47,529 bases of DNA, taken from the NCBI GenBank assembly GCA_945862385.1, contig CAMAXV010000003.1, forward strand, positions 220,522 to 268,050, read 5' to 3'. This document shows positions 1 through 9,283 of the stretch, one piece after another; the first letter of the stretch is position 1, and the number at the start of each line of letters is the position of its first letter. Under the pieces are notes generated by a model. It searched no databases. It saw nothing but the letters and a program-made list of their open reading frames with translations, and was not told the origin of the DNA. The stretch comes from Chitinophaga pinensis (GTDB lineage: Bacteria; Bacteroidota; Bacteroidia; Chitinophagales; Chitinophagaceae). Both the position numbers and the translations under genes were made by a program.

Positions 1-1422
1 AAATTGCTTACTGAAATCCCACCTTTTGAAACCTGCAATTTCAAATCTTCCTATATGACATAAACCCTGGACTATTCTGAACCCCATGAGGCGGTACCTC
101 AGCCGATTGAAAAAAAGATTACCTTCTCTTCTTAAGGGGACCAATAATTCATGCTTTATTGCTTTCATCCATTTTAGCAGATTACTCCCTGCAAGGTCTT
201 TTAAAAAACAGAATAACTTGCTGAATTGAAGCGTGAAAAGATAATGTAATCCGAGCATAGGGGCATCCCATGAAACGGTATAATTACTCATTTTGGCAAC
301 CATCATCGTCCTGACCCCTTCATCCTTTGCTAGTGAAAATACACCATCTATCCAGAAAGTATTCGGCTTAACAAGGCACCGTACAAGCTGAAAAGGCTCA
401 TTCTCAGTAAAGCCATTTGCGATATCTGAATCCGGAAAATTCAGGAATCTGGCATCTATATTTGTAAACTGGGAGATAAACCTCCTTGCAGGTTCATCTT
501 CCCTGATGCGTTCCTGTTTTTCTGGGGGAAATAAATTGATAAATTTGGGATAGGATGTAAATGTCTTTAAGGTTCGACCAGCTATCAATAATTCCCGGGA
601 GGCAAAATAGCAAAGCATGGAAGAATCCAGACCTGCACTGAGAAAAAGTCCAGCCGTTTCATTGCCAAGCCGGGTTCTTACTGCAGCTGCATAGGTAGAT
701 TTAAACAATGTAATGTAATCTTCATCCTCCTTAAACAGCAATTCCTGATTTTCCGGAACAAGCGGATACTGTTTGAAAATCGAAATGTTGTGCCCAACCT
801 TTACTACTTCTCCCCTTTTCAGTGAATACAATCCCTGAATAACTGTTTTACCATCATCCAACTTACCAGACTTTAATCCCAACTTAAAAAACTGCTCAGG
901 ATCAATGGTCATTTCAAAGCTCAAATGATTGAATAACCTCGGATCTATTGAAAAATAAAGGAATCCATCATGCTGCAAATAAAACATAGCACTGGCGCCA
1001 ATGGGATCTCTGAAAAGAAAAAGCTCCTTTTTTAGTTCATCAAACAATACAAATGACCAGTCTCCTTCAAGCTGATCCACAAATTCAATACCCCACTTTT
1101 CAAAGGCACGCATGATCAAAACAGAATCCTGCGTTTCCAGCAAAGCTTGGTGTCTGATGCCTAGCTTATCCCCCAGTTCATCGCGGTAGTCAAGCCTGAA
1201 ATATCCTGCAAGGACAAACCGCTTGCAACTACTTATCTGAATTGCAGGCAGGCCTCGTTGGTCCTCAGACTGCCGGGTTTCAGCAACCCAGCAACCAAAC
1301 TGACCAGATTTGTATTTTTTTACATCGACGCAGGTTGACTCAAAAAAATCACCTGCATCCAGCGGTGTTTTCTCACCTTCACCGGTCCTATCAACCTGAA
1401 AAAATCCACCAAAAATATTCAT
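1..1422 (-). CDS. Asparagine-synthetase-like lasso peptide cyclase (C protein), 3' end cut by window edge
   Basis: The reverse strand is open from an ATG at 1422 to the window edge, giving 474 residues without a stop. The N-terminal part resembles a class II glutamine amidotransferase (FEKWGIEFVDQLEGDWSF, FRDPIGASAMFY) but begins MNIFGGFF, so the catalytic Cys2 of true glutaminases is missing. The ATP-pyrophosphatase P-loop SAGLDSS lies near residue 261. Lasso cyclases of this family activate an Asp or Glu side chain by adenylation and close the macrolactam ring; they do not need glutamine. The ATG overlaps the B2 stop (ATGA), so the two are probably translationally coupled. Family members are usually around 600 residues, so roughly the last fifth is missing here. 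Cyclase rather than true AsnB is inferred from the neighbours and the missing cysteine. Confidence 0.88.
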   Translation of the reverse strand, partial: MNIFGGFFQVDRTGEGEKTPLDAGDFFESTCVDVKKYKSGQFGCWVAETRQSEDQRGLPAIQISSCKRFVLAGYFRLDYRDELGDKLGIRHQALLETQDSVLIMRAFEKWGIEFVDQLEGDWSFVLFDELKKELFLFRDPIGASAMFYLQHDGFLYFSIDPRLFNHLSFEMTIDPEQFFKLGLKSGKLDDGKTVIQGLYSLKRGEVVKVGHNISIFKQYPLVPENQELLFKEDEDYITLFKSTYAAAVRTRLGNETAGLFLSAGLDSSMLCYFASRELLIAGRTLKTFTSYPKFINLFPPEKQERIREDEPARRFISQFTNIDARFLNFPDSDIANGFTENEPFQLVRCLVKPNTFWIDGVFSLAKDEGVRTMMVAKMSNYTVSWDAPMLGLHYLFTLQFSKLFCFLKDLAGSNLLKWMKAIKHELLVPLRREGNLFFNRLRYRLMGFRIVQGLCHIGRFEIAGFKRWDFSKQF

Positions 1423-1847
1423 ATTCCGATTTCAGGTTTATATGACCTTCCAAACCAGGCAACTGCAGTGTACTTATTTTTCATCCCGGAACCAGTTAAC
1501 ACAAAATGCCCACAACGCAACCAGGCATGTGCGTTTAGCTTACCGTCTTCTTTTGACAAACCGAAATAAATAGTTGCCGGAATCATCCTGCGGCGGCATA
1601 ATACCATGCCTGTAAGGGCCTGATCATAACAATTGCTGTCATGGAGCGCATATTTGACTGCCCTTCGCATAGCAGTTTTTAAATGCGGGAGGCAATCCGC
1701 CGAGATCTCAACATCGGGAGTTTCTACCTGTGCGTCCCCAAGCTCACCTGCTATTTGCTGAAATGGGGTAAACAGAATCCTGAACCTGGACCAATGCAAT
1801 AACATCCAGGCTTCAAGAAATAGTTTCAATTGATTTGTTTTAATCAT
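1419..1847 (-). CDS. Lasso peptide biosynthesis B2 protein (transglutaminase-like leader protease)
   Basis: This 142-residue protein matches the Transglut_core3 (lasso B2) family. The conserved catalytic Cys sits in SNCYDQA (about residue 73) and the His in AHAWL (about residue 107), with the usual run of arginines and IPA between them. In lasso systems B2 cleaves the leader peptide once the B1 protein has delivered the precursor. The ATG at 1847 is chosen because it overlaps the stop of the PqqD-like gene by ATGA; an upstream TTG at 1862 is possible but would give a larger overlap. The downstream cyclase is coupled the same way. Family assignment is secure; the actual substrate is not visible. 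Confidence 0.9.
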   Translation of the reverse strand: MIKTNQLKLFLEAWMLLHWSRFRILFTPFQQIAGELGDAQVETPDVEISADCLPHLKTAMRRAVKYALHDSNCYDQALTGMVLCRRRMIPATIYFGLSKEDGKLNAHAWLRCGHFVLTGSGMKNKYTAVAWFGRSYKPEIGI

Positions 1848-2116
1848 TTGTCTTCCAGACAACGAATAACTTTAAGGTCAAGCATCTTTTTGATCAGGAT
1901 ATCAGTCTCATCCAGACATTGTTCACGATTTACATCATACTCAGTTATCAGGTAATCTGCCAGTTCATCGACTGTTTTTCCATCTTTCAACAATTCCCAG
2001 ATTATTGAAGCAACAGAATTCAAACCAAAGTAAAAACCTGATTCAATATCCATCATCACAACCTCATCATCAATTTTGGACTGCACTACTTGCTTGCTTT
2101 GGATATAGCGGCACAT
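1844..2116 (-). CDS. PqqD-family RiPP recognition element (lasso B1 protein)
   Basis: The 90-residue protein has the PqqD fold signature: an N-terminal strand region with the phrase ESGFYFGLNSVASIIWELL, then TVDELADYL and a helical C-terminus ending in LDLKVI. PqqD-like domains bind the leader peptide of RiPP precursors and present it to modifying enzymes. In lasso clusters a free-standing copy (B1) partners the B2 protease, which is exactly the gene that follows and overlaps it by four bases. It begins 11 bases after the kinase gene. Alone such small proteins are ambiguous, but the B2 and cyclase neighbours make the B1 call strong. Confidence 0.88.
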   Translation of the reverse strand: MCRYIQSKQVVQSKIDDEVVMMDIESGFYFGLNSVASIIWELLKDGKTVDELADYLITEYDVNREQCLDETDILIKKMLDLKVIRCLEDK

Positions 2117-2127
2117 AATAAGCTAAT

Positions 2128-3036
2128 TTACATCATTATTTGCTGAATAACTTTTTTACCAATTGTATCGATGGAATCAATACCGGCAGGCCGCTTGATT
2201 ACAAATGCAGATGACTGAACGCAAAGTTGTGTAAATACATCAAATAAAATCTGCTTGTGCAAGTCTTCCCGAAAATGATGCCCCCGATAGGCCTCTGCCA
2301 CCAATCTTGAAAAAACATCAACGCCAGATATAGATTGAATGCTAACCTCACCATCCTTGTCTGATTTTTCCAAAAAAAACAAAAACTTTGGAGGCAGTGC
2401 CCTGATATCAAAATCTGAGTGAAAAAAAATACCAAATTTATCTATGCCATCCTGTAGTCTGTGTTTTTTTTCAAACCCAGCTTGGAGTAAATCCATTGTA
2501 GACGACCAGCATTTTATCATTGGATAAGAAGCACGTACCAGAACATCCCTACTGGCTTCATCTATGAATGGCACACATACATCGTCAGAAAAAATCCTTA
2601 TACCCTGTGACTGTAAATACAGTAATAAAGTTGATTTGCCAGCACCTGAAGGGCCAAGAAACATGGCAATACTGCCATCTACATTAATTCCTGAAGCATG
2701 TAATGGTATCATTCCGCGTTGATACAAAACTGCTGCAAAAGCATTGGAGAGACAATACAACCTTACAGCACCCATTTGATGCCCTTTAAGCATCACAATA
2801 CTGATTAACTTACCTGCCTTAACCTCATAAACAGCAACACCATTCACCCGTAGCTGATAATGTTGGGCGCCATTATCAAAATGTTTTTCAGCTGACAGTA
2901 CCGTTTCTCCTTCAATACTACTCGATGTGCCAATCCTTATATAAACATCTGCTTCACCACTGAATTGCATTGGAAAGAGTTCAGGAAACTCAATCAAGGA
3001 TTCTATTTTCAAACCATATGCCAGGTATTGAAACAT
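2128..3036 (-). CDS. HPr-kinase/phosphorylase-like protein of the lasso-like cluster
   Basis: This 302-residue protein carries HPr kinase features in its C-terminal half: HASGI (near residue 113), a Walker A loop GPSGAGKST (128-136) and the acidic FSDDV (149-153). It lacks the N-terminal HprK domain of real HPr kinases, and no HPr gene is nearby. HprK homologues found in lasso clusters such as the paeninodin cluster phosphorylate a serine at the C-terminus of the precursor; that is known for the family, and the same role is inferred here. A perfect Bacteroidota promoter ends about 18 bases upstream of the ATG, so this gene may begin its own transcript with B1, B2 and the cyclase. Confidence 0.85.
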   Translation of the reverse strand: MFQYLAYGLKIESLIEFPELFPMQFSGEADVYIRIGTSSSIEGETVLSAEKHFDNGAQHYQLRVNGVAVYEVKAGKLISIVMLKGHQMGAVRLYCLSNAFAAVLYQRGMIPLHASGINVDGSIAMFLGPSGAGKSTLLLYLQSQGIRIFSDDVCVPFIDEASRDVLVRASYPMIKCWSSTMDLLQAGFEKKHRLQDGIDKFGIFFHSDFDIRALPPKFLFFLEKSDKDGEVSIQSISGVDVFSRLVAEAYRGHHFREDLHKQILFDVFTQLCVQSSAFVIKRPAGIDSIDTIGKKVIQQIMM

Positions 3037-3053
3037 GGTATTTTGTTAGACAT

Positions 3054-3084
3054 CAAATATACAGCACAATTAGAGGTGTTCAAA
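3054..3084 (-). promoter_or_regulatory. Bacteroidota promoter for the kinase-B1-B2-cyclase genes
   Basis: Read on the minus strand this is TTTG (3084-3081), 19 bases, then TATATTTG (3061-3054), an exact match to the TTTG-N19-TAnnTTTG promoter of Bacteroidota. It fills the only gap in the cluster, between the nucleotidyltransferase stop (3086) and the kinase ATG (3036), and predicts a leader of about a dozen bases. Confidence 0.75.
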
Positions 3085-3085
3085 C

Positions 3086-4216
3086 CTATGCAACGTTTTG
3101 ACCTTTTATTTTCCGCCATAAGAAAAGAAAAGGTCTGAGCGGAAAATAAAGAAAGAAAAGAAAATTTGGAAGGGGAAGCAGTTTCCAGTCTTCTGGGCCA
3201 GTCAGGTACTTAAATACTAATGGCAACCCTGCTAATCGTTTATTAAACCCCCACACATAAACAAGCTGAGTAAGCCGCATGCGGTCATTCTCATTGACCC
3301 CGGATAAATGCTGTATACTTTGTAAGATGTGTTCCATTTTACTGCAGTGCATAGATGCAGGCATGCCATTCAAAATCGGCTTTGGAATCGGGATTGAAAA
3401 TAGCTGCCGCATTAGCAACCAGGTTAATTCCAGGTGCGATAGACAATGAAGCTCCTGTGCCCTTTGCCTTACAGCATCCCAATCAAAACTGACAGTATCT
3501 ATCACCTGCAAAATATCACAAAGCCACTTCAGTCTGAACCAGGCATGTTCAGTACCATGCGTACACAGGTAAAGCAATTCCTCAACCCTATCAAGCTTTC
3601 GTACCTCATCCAGACTAAATGCTTTCAACTGTCCCCTGAACCTCCAATGCACTTCAATAACAACATTAAAATGCTGGTTCTTCCTGATATAGGCCAAATC
3701 ATGATTCACTGCCCTGAAAAATGAAAACTGGGAACGACTAAAGTTCAAAATATCAGGATCTGGATAAAAACCCTGATCCAGTAAGGCTTGGTGAAGTTGA
3801 TTTATGCCTGCCTCTTCAACCAGAATATCAATATCCAAAACATGTCTGCCGGCAATATCACCATAATACTTTTCTGCAATTTGCAGTCCTTTCAAAAAAG
3901 TGAATTTGATATTATGCTGATTCAAATAATTTTCAAGCCATGTCTCATAACTTTTGAGTGTCAGCGCCTTCAACCGATTGAAGTCAAATCGGTTCTTTAA
4001 TTCCAGCAATAAACCCGGATATTGGTCTAATTGGTCTTTTAGTGACAGATAAACAAGCGGTGTTATGCGATGACGTTCTGCGAGCACAATCAACACCTCA
4101 GCATCAATTCCCTCCAGAAAGGCAGAATTCCTTCTTTCATATTCAATAAGAGATTGTTTTTGTCTGCAACACGACAAAAGTAACTGGAAAGCAGACGAAT
4201 CAAAACTCATTTGCAT
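3086..4216 (-). CDS. Nucleotidyltransferase family protein (PF14907 type)
   Basis: The 376-residue protein resembles the NTP_transf_5 family found beside lasso and other RiPP genes. The N-terminus has the family phrase LLLSCCR. The nucleotidyltransferase core reads FTFLKGLQIAEKYYG followed by the metal-binding pair in LDIDILV (Asp128 and Asp130), and a helical region follows. In kinase-type lasso clusters this family is thought to modify the phosphorylated peptide further, but the reaction is poorly defined. The start follows the porU stop by nine bases; a second ATG at 4210 is equally possible. It is probably transcribed with porV-porU or from a promoter inside porU. Confidence 0.82.
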   Translation of the reverse strand: MQMSFDSSAFQLLLSCCRQKQSLIEYERRNSAFLEGIDAEVLIVLAERHRITPLVYLSLKDQLDQYPGLLLELKNRFDFNRLKALTLKSYETWLENYLNQHNIKFTFLKGLQIAEKYYGDIAGRHVLDIDILVEEAGINQLHQALLDQGFYPDPDILNFSRSQFSFFRAVNHDLAYIRKNQHFNVVIEVHWRFRGQLKAFSLDEVRKLDRVEELLYLCTHGTEHAWFRLKWLCDILQVIDTVSFDWDAVRQRAQELHCLSHLELTWLLMRQLFSIPIPKPILNGMPASMHCSKMEHILQSIQHLSGVNENDRMRLTQLVYVWGFNKRLAGLPLVFKYLTGPEDWKLLPLPNFLFFLYFPLRPFLFLWRKIKGQNVA

Positions 4217-4225
4217 TGTGATTGC

Positions 4226-7200
4226 TTATCGCATCAGGTACATTTTACCATAACCGCTCTTAAAGTATTTATCCGTATTCATCCCCTCTCTGCTGAGCTT
4301 CTCGATTGATTTCCCATTTATCTCGGCATTTACCCTGTACAAATAAACACCATTTGCCAGTTGCTGTCCAAACTGATCCCTTCCATCCCATTTATAGGTG
4401 GTGATATTCTGACCTATTTGCAATGGCCCAAGTTCCTGAGCACTTATTTCCCGCACAATCTTACCTGTTACAGTAAGGATTTGAATACGCATATGGGTTG
4501 GAAGCACTGAACCTGTTAATGTAAATACGAACGCTGTAGATGTTGTAAAAGGATTAGGATAATTAAGCATGTTTGTGATCATCGGTTTATTGATAACCTC
4601 AAATGAGATATTGTAATCCAAGGCACCTGAAAGATTATTGCTTCTGTCTTTTGCCTGCACACTCAGTTCATAAACGCCATCTGCGGTTAACATAGGCCTG
4701 AAAAGTACTTTCGCAAGATTCTCATTACCTGTTCCGTTGATTACTGCTGGTATAAACTGCATGGTGTCATTATCGAACCTAAGCTGCCTCTGGGATCCAT
4801 CGGGATATTTTAACCTGACAGTAAATAAAGACGTATCGTTAAGTGCAAGGTATTTTGAATCATCTCTAAGGGTCATGAGAATCTCAGGTTTTGAGCTTAC
4901 TATATCCCTGTTGACAATATGCATGCCATCAAACGTTACATCCAAATCCGGAGCCGTATTATCTGAGCCCACAAAAAATCCTTTTATCAAGTAATTATTG
5001 AACTGGAATTGCTCTGGCTGTGCATTCTCGGGATTGAAATTCACCAGAACGGCATTAGCCCCTTTCAGCTTTTCAGTATTTAATGTGTAGTTTAACTGAA
5101 GTGTGTCGCCGGGTACTAATGGTCTTTTCAAGGTGTCAAGTACAAGTCTGGTTTGATTGCCGGCATCAACAATGCCAACCCACACTTTCAGGCTGTCAAA
5201 TGGAACATCAGATATGTTTCTGAATGCCACATTGAGCTTTATCGGGGCACCTGCGTCAGTTGTATCTTTCCATGCCTGCGTCCCCTTACTGATCAAAATT
5301 CCCTCAGGTACTTCATCATAAATCACCTGCATATACCGTGGCTGCCAGGGTGTATTCCATGAAGTATCCCTATAAGCTCGCTTTACCTTTACATAAGGGA
5401 ATCTGGATGCGTCAATCTGTTGCATGGATGAGTCAATACGGAGTGAAGAAGTTTCAAATAATACTTCCTCTGTAAAATCCTTTCTTACACCTACTATGCT
5501 GTGTATCACTTCATCCTGTTGAGAAAGGTCGGGAGAACCTCCATTCCATCGGATCTGTTTCCAGGTTTTAGCCGGACCAATAAGCCCGGTTTCTTCCTCA
5601 CCGGAAGTACCAAGACTGGTATATTGTCCAACATATTTCAAAATAGCATTTGACTGAAGCCCAACCTGCTGTTCTATAACGTCCCAGGTATTATCGACTC
5701 TTTTTTGGCCAACAAAAAGAAAAGGTAATTTTCTTGAAAGAGAATCAACCATATGAAATCCAAGTGCTTTTAGCCTATGATAAAGGCTGTTTTCTCTTCC
5801 GTATTGCAATGTGTCTGACTGCCAGACTGAAATATCATCAAACCTGCTGGTGGCATTCGCAAGGTTCATCATCACAACTAATGTACCTGCAGGGATGGAA
5901 TCAAACATATCCATCATATTCTTTCTGGACGTAGCATTATTGTACCCATACCAGAAAGTGTAAGGCAATAATGGACTACAAAGCTGATTGAAGTCACTTT
6001 TAAATCGACCTGTATTACCTTGAAAAATATTTTTAACGGGCTTCCCCAATTTTGTATCGATCATAACCAACTGGAATGAACCAAAAACCTGAGGACAAAG
6101 CAAAGGAATCAAGGAGGTCTGATCGTTGAAAACACTATTGGGCGAAACATTTTGAATTGCCGTATTCACACGATAATTGTGTTGCTGCTCCCCAAAAATC
6201 AGATTACGTTCCTCACTATACTTTAAATTAGTTTTAATGTTCCGGTTTTGTTGAAAATAATGAGACTGATTCCAGCCTTTTTCACCTCCAGATAAATAAA
6301 CAAATGATGAAGATGCCCAGCTTAATTCGGCACCAGATGCTGAGTTTTGAGCAACCCGCCAGTAGTAAACGGTACTATCCTTCAACAATAATATGGGAGT
6401 AAACTCAACCAATCCACCGGTTGAAGTTCTGGTCTGACTTACCCTGGCTGCTGAATTGAAATATTCGGTGGTATCAACCTGGACAATATAATCTTTGGGC
6501 TGATCAGTAAACTTTCCAACTGAGGCTTTTAAAACAACAGATGCTTTGTTTACAATAGCAAAAGGATAAGGATAAACTGGCCGAATGTCATCTTCATTGA
6601 TGATAAATGTTCGAATAACAGCATTATTGGCTACTGATGTTTCTTTTATTATGCCATCAGGATTTACCTGAACAATTATTTTATTTTGTCCCTTAAACCT
6701 TGTTGGATCCAATTTTACTGGCAGGGAAATGGAGTCTGCAAAAAACAGTCTTCCGATTTTACCCTCGTACAATATTTCCTGCGTGGCATCAGGTAATTCA
6801 TGCAAAATTTTTAACGACACGGAATCAGGACTTGCTCTTCCAATATTGACCACTTTCACCTTTACATCAAATTTAGAATCTGTCATACTGATTGGAGTTG
6901 GACTAACAACCACTGTTGCATCCTCAACTACATAATCAGGCAACTCAGGTGCGTACAATTTTACGGCAGGATCTCCATTTAAGAGGCATTGCTCCATGGT
7001 TATGATGTTGTAAAAATCAGTAGATCCACCCTGCTCCATCACATCTTTTAAGGCATTCAACTGCAGGTTTCCGATAGAAGATCCATAACTCGGGGAGGCA
7101 AGCCTCTTGTAAAGGTTATAGGTGTATAGGTTAAGATAGTTTACAATCCCATAATGTGTGCTGGCCAGAAAACCTATACTTCCTTTATCCGGGGTTAGGA

Positions 7201-9283
7201 TATAATTCTCAGAGATTGATCTCTTCCCTGAATTCAGGCGTAGGCTATCATATATGAAAAAGTTCCCTGCATTACAGCCATTGGCTAGAAACAATGGATA
7301 TTTCCCTGCATTATTGAAGATAATTGGATCATCCAGGTTAAACTCCATCGAACTGGCTGAAGAATGCCCGAAATATGTAATCAGTCCGAGACCTTGATCC
7401 ACCAGATTTCCCAGCAATCCAGAGTTAACCTGCTCAATACCTGCAGGTGTAAGCTTTTCGAATGTGTTTACATGTGCACCAACAAGTGTATCCTGAATAA
7501 CTGACTTTGCCGTATTCATGTACCCATTAATTACACCCTGCAGGTAAGGATCCCCGCCGCCAATGACGTGAGCTACTTTTTTCATCCAGCCTTTTGCAGC
7601 AATTGTCTGTTCTGTGGAGCGAAGATTCTGTTCATGTTGCTTCACTTTATTCAGATAAACAATTATTTCATCCCCATTGGTTACAGATAATCTCCCTACA
7701 GGAATTTCCGGAGTTGGATCATTGTTTTCGGATACAAGAATATTATCTGAACCGGGACTCCCAAATGTTGGAATCAGATTCAACTTTGCAGTTGCAGCTC
7801 TTGACTCATTGATTCTGGATTGATCATAGGTTATTCCCTTGCCTACAAGCAGCAATTGCCTGGGAGGATTCTGAAATTTCTGCCGAGCAAATGCAATAAA
7901 ATTTTTTATCGAAAGGGGATGTTTTTTGATACCCCAGGAAAACTGTTCTTCCAGCTCATCAATTTGGTAAATACCTACCTGATGAGATCCCCCTGCTGAA
8001 CTTTCCCTATATGATTTGTAAAGTGCAACTGGATCTCCTGCACTGCTTGTTCTCAGGGAAGGATGCGTTATTATCATGAAGTCACCTTGCAATGATGCAG
8101 CAGTAAAATCAGTGAAATTTCGTTTTTGCAAATTATTTATAGCCCTTAGCTGCCCGGCTGCATTCATCAACACAAATTGTCTCGTCCCCCCCGGAGGCAC
8201 AGCAAATCTAACAAGCCCGGCAGTTCCAATATCACCCACATATCTTTTTTGCTCTGTGATGTTATATAAAACCGGAGGCTGCCCCTCTGAAGCAAATCCG
8301 CTGATTTCAAGAAAGTTACCGGCAACTGCTGGGGGGAGTGAAAAGGCAAAAAAGGAACTTCCACCAAAATTGAAGTTTCTTGGATAAACGAGTTCATATT
8401 TGGCAACTGTTATCCTGTCTGCTGGAACATTAGCCAGATTTGTTACCCTGATGGTATCAACAGGCCTTCCCAGGAGGCTTGAAGTAACACTAATTTCCTG
8501 AACAGCAGGATTAAAAAGGTCCATTCTGCGTTCCAAAACAGGAGTACCGTTCACTGAAACCCGTAATGATCTTACATTGGGCGCATTACCATAGGCAGCA
8601 ATGCGTAAAACCGGATCTGGTCCGCCTGAAGCCATGTATAAATTGTTATACTGCTCTACCAGCGGAGTGGCGGGTTGAATATTTCTGCTGCTCCAACCTT
8701 CTCCATTGTCGTATGAGGAAGAATAAATATAAACGCCTACCACCGAAGCGAAGCCAGGGTTCAGCTGGTCCCTGAAACTCCGATCCAGGGTATGCATAAA
8801 ATATGGTTCCGGAGGTAAAGCGTTTGCTGCTACATTATTTGCTGCTGCTGATATTCTTGTGTTTCCTGAAGCCGGATTAATTGTAAGAAAATAGGCAACA
8901 GTGTCTGTGTAAAGACTCCAACGGTCTGAAAGTTGAAAAGCCGGATTGTTGTATAATGACGCATCTTGTTTACCATCATTCATCTGCCCATAAAACTCAA
9001 TAAAATCATTGTCACTTAATAGCCCCGTTGAAATACTTGTGTAAAGAGGTACTTCCTTCCCATTCCTCCAAAGCTGAAAACTTTCTGCCGGATTGTTACC
9101 CAATCCAGCGGTCCTCAACACCGCACCTGATATTCTGTAAAGTCCGTCTTGCGCAAGCGTGAACTTATAATATGTTTTGCCGTAATCGATCCAGGCGTTA
9201 TTAAACTGGGCAGTTGTGTTGACTGAAATCAGGATGAACAGGATGACGAAAGAAAAAAGCCGGGATATTTTAGTCTTTTCCAT
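4226..9283 (-). CDS. porU: Type IX secretion system sortase PorU
   Basis: PorU is the cell-surface sortase that removes the C-terminal signal of T9SS cargo and attaches the protein to the outer membrane. The 1685-residue product has a signal peptide ending near NTTAQ, then a gingipain-type (peptidase C25) domain with the catalytic His in YFGHSSASS (about 638) and Cys in NGCNAG (about 667). CARDF-like and Ig-like repeats fill the long middle. The C-terminus has its own sorting-type domain, with YPNPFTTS and a FlgD-like YKWDGRDQFGQ, then GVYLYRV. It is longer than the 1158-residue Porphyromonas protein. Its ATG overlaps the porV stop by one base, so the two are an operon, as in other Bacteroidota. 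Confidence 0.95.
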   Translation of the reverse strand: MEKTKISRLFSFVILFILISVNTTAQFNNAWIDYGKTYYKFTLAQDGLYRISGAVLRTAGLGNNPAESFQLWRNGKEVPLYTSISTGLLSDNDFIEFYGQMNDGKQDASLYNNPAFQLSDRWSLYTDTVAYFLTINPASGNTRISAAANNVAANALPPEPYFMHTLDRSFRDQLNPGFASVVGVYIYSSSYDNGEGWSSRNIQPATPLVEQYNNLYMASGGPDPVLRIAAYGNAPNVRSLRVSVNGTPVLERRMDLFNPAVQEISVTSSLLGRPVDTIRVTNLANVPADRITVAKYELVYPRNFNFGGSSFFAFSLPPAVAGNFLEISGFASEGQPPVLYNITEQKRYVGDIGTAGLVRFAVPPGGTRQFVLMNAAGQLRAINNLQKRNFTDFTAASLQGDFMIITHPSLRTSSAGDPVALYKSYRESSAGGSHQVGIYQIDELEEQFSWGIKKHPLSIKNFIAFARQKFQNPPRQLLLVGKGITYDQSRINESRAATAKLNLIPTFGSPGSDNILVSENNDPTPEIPVGRLSVTNGDEIIVYLNKVKQHEQNLRSTEQTIAAKGWMKKVAHVIGGGDPYLQGVINGYMNTAKSVIQDTLVGAHVNTFEKLTPAGIEQVNSGLLGNLVDQGLGLITYFGHSSASSMEFNLDDPIIFNNAGKYPLFLANGCNAGNFFIYDSLRLNSGKRSISENYILTPDKGSIGFLASTHYGIVNYLNLYTYNLYKRLASPSYGSSIGNLQLNALKDVMEQGGSTDFYNIITMEQCLLNGDPAVKLYAPELPDYVVEDATVVVSPTPISMTDSKFDVKVKVVNIGRASPDSVSLKILHELPDATQEILYEGKIGRLFFADSISLPVKLDPTRFKGQNKIIVQVNPDGIIKETSVANNAVIRTFIINEDDIRPVYPYPFAIVNKASVVLKASVGKFTDQPKDYIVQVDTTEYFNSAARVSQTRTSTGGLVEFTPILLLKDSTVYYWRVAQNSASGAELSWASSSFVYLSGGEKGWNQSHYFQQNRNIKTNLKYSEERNLIFGEQQHNYRVNTAIQNVSPNSVFNDQTSLIPLLCPQVFGSFQLVMIDTKLGKPVKNIFQGNTGRFKSDFNQLCSPLLPYTFWYGYNNATSRKNMMDMFDSIPAGTLVVMMNLANATSRFDDISVWQSDTLQYGRENSLYHRLKALGFHMVDSLSRKLPFLFVGQKRVDNTWDVIEQQVGLQSNAILKYVGQYTSLGTSGEEETGLIGPAKTWKQIRWNGGSPDLSQQDEVIHSIVGVRKDFTEEVLFETSSLRIDSSMQQIDASRFPYVKVKRAYRDTSWNTPWQPRYMQVIYDEVPEGILISKGTQAWKDTTDAGAPIKLNVAFRNISDVPFDSLKVWVGIVDAGNQTRLVLDTLKRPLVPGDTLQLNYTLNTEKLKGANAVLVNFNPENAQPEQFQFNNYLIKGFFVGSDNTAPDLDVTFDGMHIVNRDIVSSKPEILMTLRDDSKYLALNDTSLFTVRLKYPDGSQRQLRFDNDTMQFIPAVINGTGNENLAKVLFRPMLTADGVYELSVQAKDRSNNLSGALDYNISFEVINKPMITNMLNYPNPFTTSTAFVFTLTGSVLPTHMRIQILTVTGKIVREISAQELGPLQIGQNITTYKWDGRDQFGQQLANGVYLYRVNAEINGKSIEKLSREGMNTDKYFKSGYGKMYLMR

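Follow-up and report, generated by a model that had tools for sequence, protein, structure and literature searches.

What kind of peptide is made by a kinase-type, lasso-like gene set that lies directly behind the type 9 secretion system (T9SS) gene porU, and where is its precursor? The question is raised by a 47,529 nt stretch of Chitinophaga pinensis DNA (the window, G000:C3:220522-268050; base 0 is C3:220521 and coordinates to the left of the window are negative). At its left edge lie genes for a nucleotidyltransferase (NT), an HprK-like kinase (K), a PqqD-like protein (B1), a transglutaminase-like protease (B2) and an asparagine-synthetase-like cyclase (C), in which a sequence-only reading had seen a phosphorylated-lasso-peptide set with no visible precursor. 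We find the precursor just outside the window. The explanation that we favour overall, with a probability of roughly 0.55, is a kinase-type (paeninodin-like) locus for a ribosomally synthesized and post-translationally modified peptide (RiPP), in which the ring would be closed between a Lys and an Asp and a cassette of enzyme and precursor would be replaced as a block.

The precursor and its core

The gaps from porU through NT, K, B1 and B2 to C measure 9, 49, 11, -19 and -4 nt, and a precursor within the five-gene stretch is ruled out for want of a gap large enough, as the sequence-only reading had noted. Its proposal that the precursor lies beyond the left edge was also right: an open reading frame (ORF), precursor A (MKEWIKPEIELLPISQTLATCNVVGKVEGIIDANDDIDCAATS), follows C and overlaps the cyclase stop by 17 nt. 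A more distant precursor is ruled out by this finding, and the absence of a precursor from the 20 kb on the left, which that reading had named as evidence against itself, did not come true. Precursor A has a paeninodin-type leader (WxxP with Thr at P+10) and a Ser at its C-terminus. The five-gene set and the precursor are almost certainly real.

Of the 41 genus genomes, many of which are incomplete, 18 proved to have a cluster of the window's type (type 1). A precursor stands directly after C in 15 of the 18 (the window genome and 14 others), and in the remaining three (G170, G180 and G177) the contig stops within or before C; L046, L052, L053 and L055 are without a precursor because their contigs end. 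Against the NCBIfam paeninodin family NF033524, precursor A reaches 22.5 bits (E 7e-5), under the cut-off of 27, and the L045 precursor 21.3 bits; four other type-1 precursors give no match and a Paenibacillus control gives 44.7. The leader-pattern scan found no convincing precursor at L061, L063, L075, L077, L079, L080, L081, L086, L088, L091 and L119. At L054 (4472-6580, minus strand) cyclase and precursor are fused in a single frame, with an ATG opening the precursor part. Between any two of L058, L059 and L183, 11-12 of the 22 final codons differ without any amino-acid change, and the leaders differ too; since the codon differences are synonymous only, the precursor ORF is translated and its core selected. 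Three shortened type-1 cyclases accompany this identical core under purifying selection.

For the comparison of cores, 13 distinct type-1 sequences were used, leaving out L059 and L183, whose core is identical to that of L058. The 33 control precursors of other clusters were selected by eye from leader-pattern matches beside clusters, with near-copies removed (the second of L019, L064 and L083, three of the four of L082, the first of L118 and the second of L121). All 13 type-1 precursors contain WxxP, Thr at P+10, a C-terminal Ser and two Cys after the Thr, and all 13 cores have a single Lys after the Thr, with an Asp at Lys+6 (nine cores) or Lys+7 (four cores). Among the controls this Lys-Asp rule holds in four, two Cys are present in none and a C-terminal Ser in 25. 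Lys-Asp is the top rule of residue pair and spacing, found in 13 of 13 cores as against a maximum of 11 across 400 shuffles, a figure to be taken as a guide and not as a probability because the kinship of the cores makes the shuffles overstate significance. Three cores found after the rule had been written down (L054, L182 and L184) obey it (p 0.005).

In PbaA, a paeninodin-like precursor, the Trp is residue -15 (PMC13381572, section 9), and therefore the Thr at P+10 is placed at -2 in the type-1 precursors. The sequence-only reading had expected Gly at core position 1 and Asp or Glu at positions 7 to 9. The window precursor does not fit this pattern if cleavage takes place at the expected Thr(-2), as its acidic residues, counted from Thr+2, stand at 10, 14, 17, 18 and 20. 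Counted in the same way, Asp or Glu at 7-9 is present in five type-1 cores and absent from eight, the window's included, and a Gly near the expected start together with such an acid occurs in 2 of the 13 as against 25 of the 33 controls. A Gly1-Asp8 ring (GKVEGIID in the window; also L012, L051, L054 and L182) was rejected, as it requires a leader whose end shifts. A cut at Thr(-2) would keep both Cys, which lie past the expected cut in 13 of 13 precursors and flank the Lys-Asp stretch in ten, and would give an N-terminal arm of variable length (the distance from Thr to Lys varies from 2 to 14). After such a cut the Lys remains an amine at constant distance from an acid, and for this reason a Lys-Asp ring is favoured; we put it forward tentatively, at slightly less than even odds. 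Phosphorylation of the C-terminal Ser is predicted from the likeness to paeninodin.

Divergence of the cyclase and the precursor

The type-1 loci L047 and L050 share a well conserved backbone, with identities of 86% for K, 82% for B1, 75% for B2, 98% for rpsU and 86% for XerC. Their cyclases are 94-100% identical over residues 1-100, 62% over residues 101-150 and 18-50% in the later 50-residue windows. DNA identity falls from about 0.85 to 0.17-0.57 across the remainder of C and through the precursor, to rise again to 0.97 at rpsU, and two further pairs have the same profile. Seven of the eight overlapping pairs combine 76-100% identity over residues 1-100 of C with strong divergence of later C and the precursor and with conserved sequence beyond. 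The last 257 residues of C have an identity of 0.24-0.35 in all 13 pairs whose kinase identity exceeds 0.60. For ten control pairs drawn from other clusters, the identity of whole C differs from that of K by no more than 0.11, and the first 100 residues of C are clearly the less conserved part in five of the ten; these pairs are not independent (three are made by L016, L017 and L113, and L064 is in two), and the controls L062 and L064 are truncated where their contigs stop, with one window apiece at 0.0 or 0.41.

Base composition changes within the same gene. The rest of C has a lower GC content than the first 360 nt in ten of ten full-length type-1 genes (0.27-0.40 versus 0.41-0.47, with steps of 0.05-0.18), and in six control cyclases the two parts differ by at most 0.045. 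Among 12 aligned type-1 cyclases 37 columns, including those of the ATP motif (LSAGLDSS in the window cyclase), are invariant, and the reading frames are open. Because the borders are sharp, the GC content changes in a step and motifs are kept, fast drift is the less likely cause, and the variation probably arose as blocks were replaced from an old allele pool.

The contigs of three of the 18 loci (L052, L053 and L055) break off inside later C, an effect that alleles present side by side could have, as could AT-rich sequence by itself. The profile matches in the 41 genus genomes showed no apparent silent copies of the cassette, a weak negative. Similarity of the cores and similarity of the C tails correlate with r 0.46 (78 pairs), a value that includes one identical-core pair and is therefore not used as evidence.

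The gene set and the site behind porU

Coordinates and family searches agree with the five genes that had been assigned behind porU (Table 1). B1 matches the NCBIfam lasso PqqD model with E 2e-16 and 59.8 bits, under the cut-off of 80, and lies above the Pfam cut-off. B2 exceeds the curated cut-off of NCBIfam lasso_biosyn_B2 (E 3e-20), and its Cys78 and His112 are invariant in eight aligned sequences. A split B1 (PqqD-like) and B2 (transglutaminase-like, Cys-His) is present as in paeninodin-type lasso sets. In NCBIfam, K matches HprK-related kinase A best (27.7 bits) and HprK-related kinase B next (23.8 bits; cut-off 200 for each), and its predicted fold (mean predicted local distance difference test score 89) matches PEPCK best in the PDB, followed by HprK/P. 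His113, Lys134, Asp151 and Asp152 of K are invariant in 21 of 21 aligned kinases, a residue set described for lasso kinases (PMC9266682, PMC10368454). Assignment of the kinase to true HPr kinases or of the cyclase to true AsnB would have spoken against the sequence-only reading, and neither came about: K scores 18.6 bits against the HPr kinase model (cut-off 240) and, judged by its sequence, is distinct from HPr kinase itself, and C scores best against lass_lactam_cya (114 bits, cut-off 525) and reaches 104 bits against AsnB (cut-off 267), both sub-cut-off. A cyclase with a lost second motif was considered and dropped, as a Paenibacillus cyclase carries the same Asn. The type-1 cyclases of L058, L059, L183 and L184 are N-terminally shorter (555-570 residues). 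A search for related loci with the cyclase as query found none; the scan with B1 as query gave 29 named loci.

Table 1. Features at the left edge of the window and beyond it
Feature	Position	Strand	Remarks
Precursor A	-666 to -535 (G000:C3:219855-219986; L002 17856-17987)	-	43 aa; wholly outside the window, right after C
C, asparagine-synthetase-like cyclase	1..1422 in the window; full gene to -551 (G000:C3:219970-221943)	-	657 aa
B2, transglutaminase-like leader protease	1419..1862	-	Transglut_core3, E 7e-19
B1, PqqD-like leader-binding protein (RiPP recognition element, RRE)	1844..2116	-	PqqD, E 2e-17
K, HprK-like kinase	2128..3036	-	NCBIfam matches, aligned residues, predicted fold
NT, nucleotidyltransferase	3086..4216	-	NTP_transf_5 family, E 7e-39
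porU	4226..9283	-	Neighbour at the insertion site, outside the pathway; name from the sequence-only reading, homologs tracked across genomes

Beyond precursor A follow ribE on the opposite strand, rpsU, xerC, hpf, tRNAs and tuf (gene names partly by homology). Of the 41 genus genomes, 25 yielded the kinase, and so did 23 of 394 genomes drawn from the family (seven of these 23 from the genus); the seven kinase-bearing genus genomes outside type 1 carry type 2, located elsewhere. The 16 type-1 kinase rows of the tree group in a single clade (support 99/98). Kinase and PorU identities agree across 10 genomes (Mantel r 0.92), which suggests that the conserved backbone is mostly inherited.

The type-1 cluster shares a contig with porU in 14 of 18 loci, whereas in 16 genus genomes a porU match was found and no type-1 cluster. 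Eight of these were read behind porU: in four (L187, L190, L191 and L192) ribE-rpsU follows straight away and the site is empty, and in the other four (L185, L186, L188 and L189) other genes come first between porU and ribE. The six genes tested there are one glycosyltransferase, two PMT-like, two YfhO-like and one sulfatase-like. The place behind porU is a chromosomal insertion site, which explains a location behind T9SS sortase genes that had seemed odd.

A second genus of the family (L016, L017 and L113) has a kinase-type cluster of other gene order directly behind porU, with rplK on the far side. Within the genus, the type-2 kinase clusters L056, L057, L060, L062 and L064 lie elsewhere and have precursors of the Gly1-Asp7 or Glu8 kind; they end in DKSG in L060, L062 and L064 and in SQ in L057, not in Ser. 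L120 and L121 each show a tandem pair of kinase genes and two precursor-like ORFs, which end in His-Thr, not Ser. Four different precursor-like ORFs surround one kinase cluster in L078 (Amylibacter marinus), several of them, by eye, without Asp or Glu at 7-9 after the leader Thr. Isolate names among the genus assemblies, such as Erken and Loclat, presumably point to lakes.

Readings of the locus and known systems

The gene set, the precursor, the invariants of the core, the insertion site and the mosaic variation in relatives are read directly from the DNA. In the pathway that we propose, every chemical step of which is inferred, B1 would bind the WxxP leader of precursor A, K would phosphorylate the C-terminal Ser, which NT would perhaps extend, and B2 would cleave the leader one residue past Thr(-2). 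C would activate one Asp and close the ring onto the side chain of the Lys (Lys-x5-6-Asp), not onto the N-terminus, and the two Cys would form a disulfide. B1, B2, K and the first part of C constitute a conserved backbone, and the larger later part of C would be replaced jointly with the precursor as an AT-rich cassette. It is possible, though doubtful, that the locus is a polymorphic recognition locus, in which lasso-type cyclases would make peptides with an internal Lys-Asp ring, a disulfide flank and a phosphoserine end, and in which the larger, catalytic part of the cyclase and the precursor would be exchanged as one cassette in the manner of agr pherotypes, giving private peptides under a common reading of the leader.

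Besides the kinship of the cores, several points weigh against the favoured explanation. No product has been seen. Not every pair shows the mosaic, since C diverges uniformly between L058 and L059, nor is there a consistent GC step in the four shortened type-1 cyclases. The steps in the window (0.458 to 0.398) and in L054 (0.406 to 0.357) are scarcely above the 0.045 reached by the controls; the window genome is without a close relative in the sample, and replacement of the cassette is seen in relatives only. The window cyclase has A376, K377 and S379 where 11 of 12 type-1 sequences have G, Q and G. No transporter is present among the ORFs between porU and ribE, as the sequence-only reading had observed, and the top-scoring hit of the relatives' ABC protein in the window genome has 26% identity. 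An ABC exporter is a usual but not a strict part of lasso clusters. Where at least some of the NT-K stretch can be read, 11 of 16 type-1 loci have an ABC transporter gene between NT and K on the opposite strand; it is absent from the window genome and from the L054, L055, L058 and L059 loci. Its lack may be the older state, because early branches of the kinase tree, weakly supported, lead to the window, to L055 and to the L058/L059 pair. No lasso-type cyclase known to us works with the side chain of a Lys. BsfK and LppK, which are related kinases, act on Ser3 rather than the last Ser (PMC10368454, PMC13381572). Finally, only G, A, S, N, Q or T stands directly before the Lys (chance 1.3e-4), and a small or polar residue at this position would also suit an N-terminus there, with ordinary rings of 8 or 9 residues.

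This last point leads to an ordinary lasso peptide with a long and variable leader, in which the residue before the Lys is core residue 1 (G in five cores, A, N and S in two each, Q and T in one each) and its amine bonds Asp8 or Asp9. The rings would then have the usual sizes of 8 (nine cores) or 9 (four cores). Yet the Thr is fixed at P+10 in all 13 precursors, at the -2 place of PbaA, in spite of the changing distance to the Lys, and a cut before residue 1 would lose one of the two Cys in ten cores; we consider this explanation unlikely. If a lasso peptide were cut at Thr(-2) and its N-terminus then bonded any available Asp or Glu, leader and cut would be normal and the five cores with an acid at 7-9 would be accommodated. 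The other eight have their first acid past position 9, at 10-16, and would require rings larger than the 7-9 residues of characterised lasso peptides (PMC13352647), which renders this proposal improbable.

It is also improbable that no ring is made and that the product is a linear phosphorylated peptide, as in the linear polyphosphorylated peptides (LPPs) of Bacillota, which share kinase, NT and RRE (PMC13381572). The cyclase would then be jobless and drifting, and the 24-35% identity of its last 257 residues in the 13 pairs of similar kinases speaks for this. The 37 invariant columns and the open frames argue otherwise, and LPP clusters are typically without C and B2 and use another peptidase (PMC13381572). 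That the locus serves the T9SS beside its sortase gene is very improbable. The shared contigs and the position of the second-genus cluster behind porU speak for such a role, but no T9SS link is needed, because the eight cluster-free genomes that were read have ribE-rpsU or other genes in that place; gene order and orientation in the second genus differ, which indicates a hotspot.

The machinery and the leader are those of paeninodin-type lasso peptides, and in this respect the lasso reading of the gene set stands. It is not established for the product, whose lasso identity is putative: it likely works like a lasso peptide, and it should not be filed as one since the acceptor spacing that defines such peptides was looked for and is missing from eight of the 13 cores. 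In most variable peptide pathways known to us, it is the peptide that changes while its enzymes are kept. Here the greater part of the ring-closing enzyme varies along with the peptide, at a fixed place and with sharp borders. The loci provide naturally matched pairs of cyclase and substrate on a shared backbone, and with them a direct route to the determinants of ring choice in lasso-type cyclases. The variation also hints that the product is selected to differ, as a private signal or weapon. A Lys-Asp ring, if true, would be a new bond type for lasso-type cyclases, and precursor searches that demand Asp or Glu at 7-9 after the leader would miss most members of the type-1 family. We found no literature on Lys-ring lasso cyclases or swapped cyclases, judged by titles and the starts of abstracts with subscription papers mostly outside, and none that joins lasso peptide, hypervariability, cyclase and recombination.

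Among known systems, the paeninodin-type clusters (pade, thco and pba; related bsf) have the same enzymes, namely an HprK-like K, a split B1/B2, C and NT (PMC9266682, PMC13381572, PMC10368454). The pba leader has WxxP with Thr at P+10 (PMC13381572), and paeninodin is phosphorylated by its kinase at a C-terminal Ser (PMC9266682), a residue also present here, while the bsf kinase acts on Ser3 (PMC10368454). In contrast to these clusters, the precursor lies behind C, the window genome has no exporter, later C and the precursor are hypervariable, and the core breaks the rule of an N-terminus bonded to Asp or Glu at 7-9 and contains two Cys and a single Lys with Asp at +6 or +7. Lasso peptides of classes III and IV have one disulfide (PMC13352647, section 15), and the type-1 cores likewise have one Cys pair; however, in 10 of the 13 cores one Cys stands on the N-terminal side of the putative ring, an arrangement that is impossible for a lasso with its N-terminus in the ring. 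LPPs have in common with our locus the HprK-like kinase, the NTP transferase, the RRE and the kind of leader motif, and differ in their signal-peptidase-like protease, YxxP leaders and typical lack of B2 and cyclase (PMC13381572). The agr system of Staphylococcus aureus has an unrelated chemistry, and its variable block also covers part of agrC (PMC3673130), whereas no variable receptor was noticed here. The rest of that hypervariable block, the 3' end of agrB and all of agrD (PMC3673130), is the tail of an enzyme together with its precursor, as in the type-1 loci.

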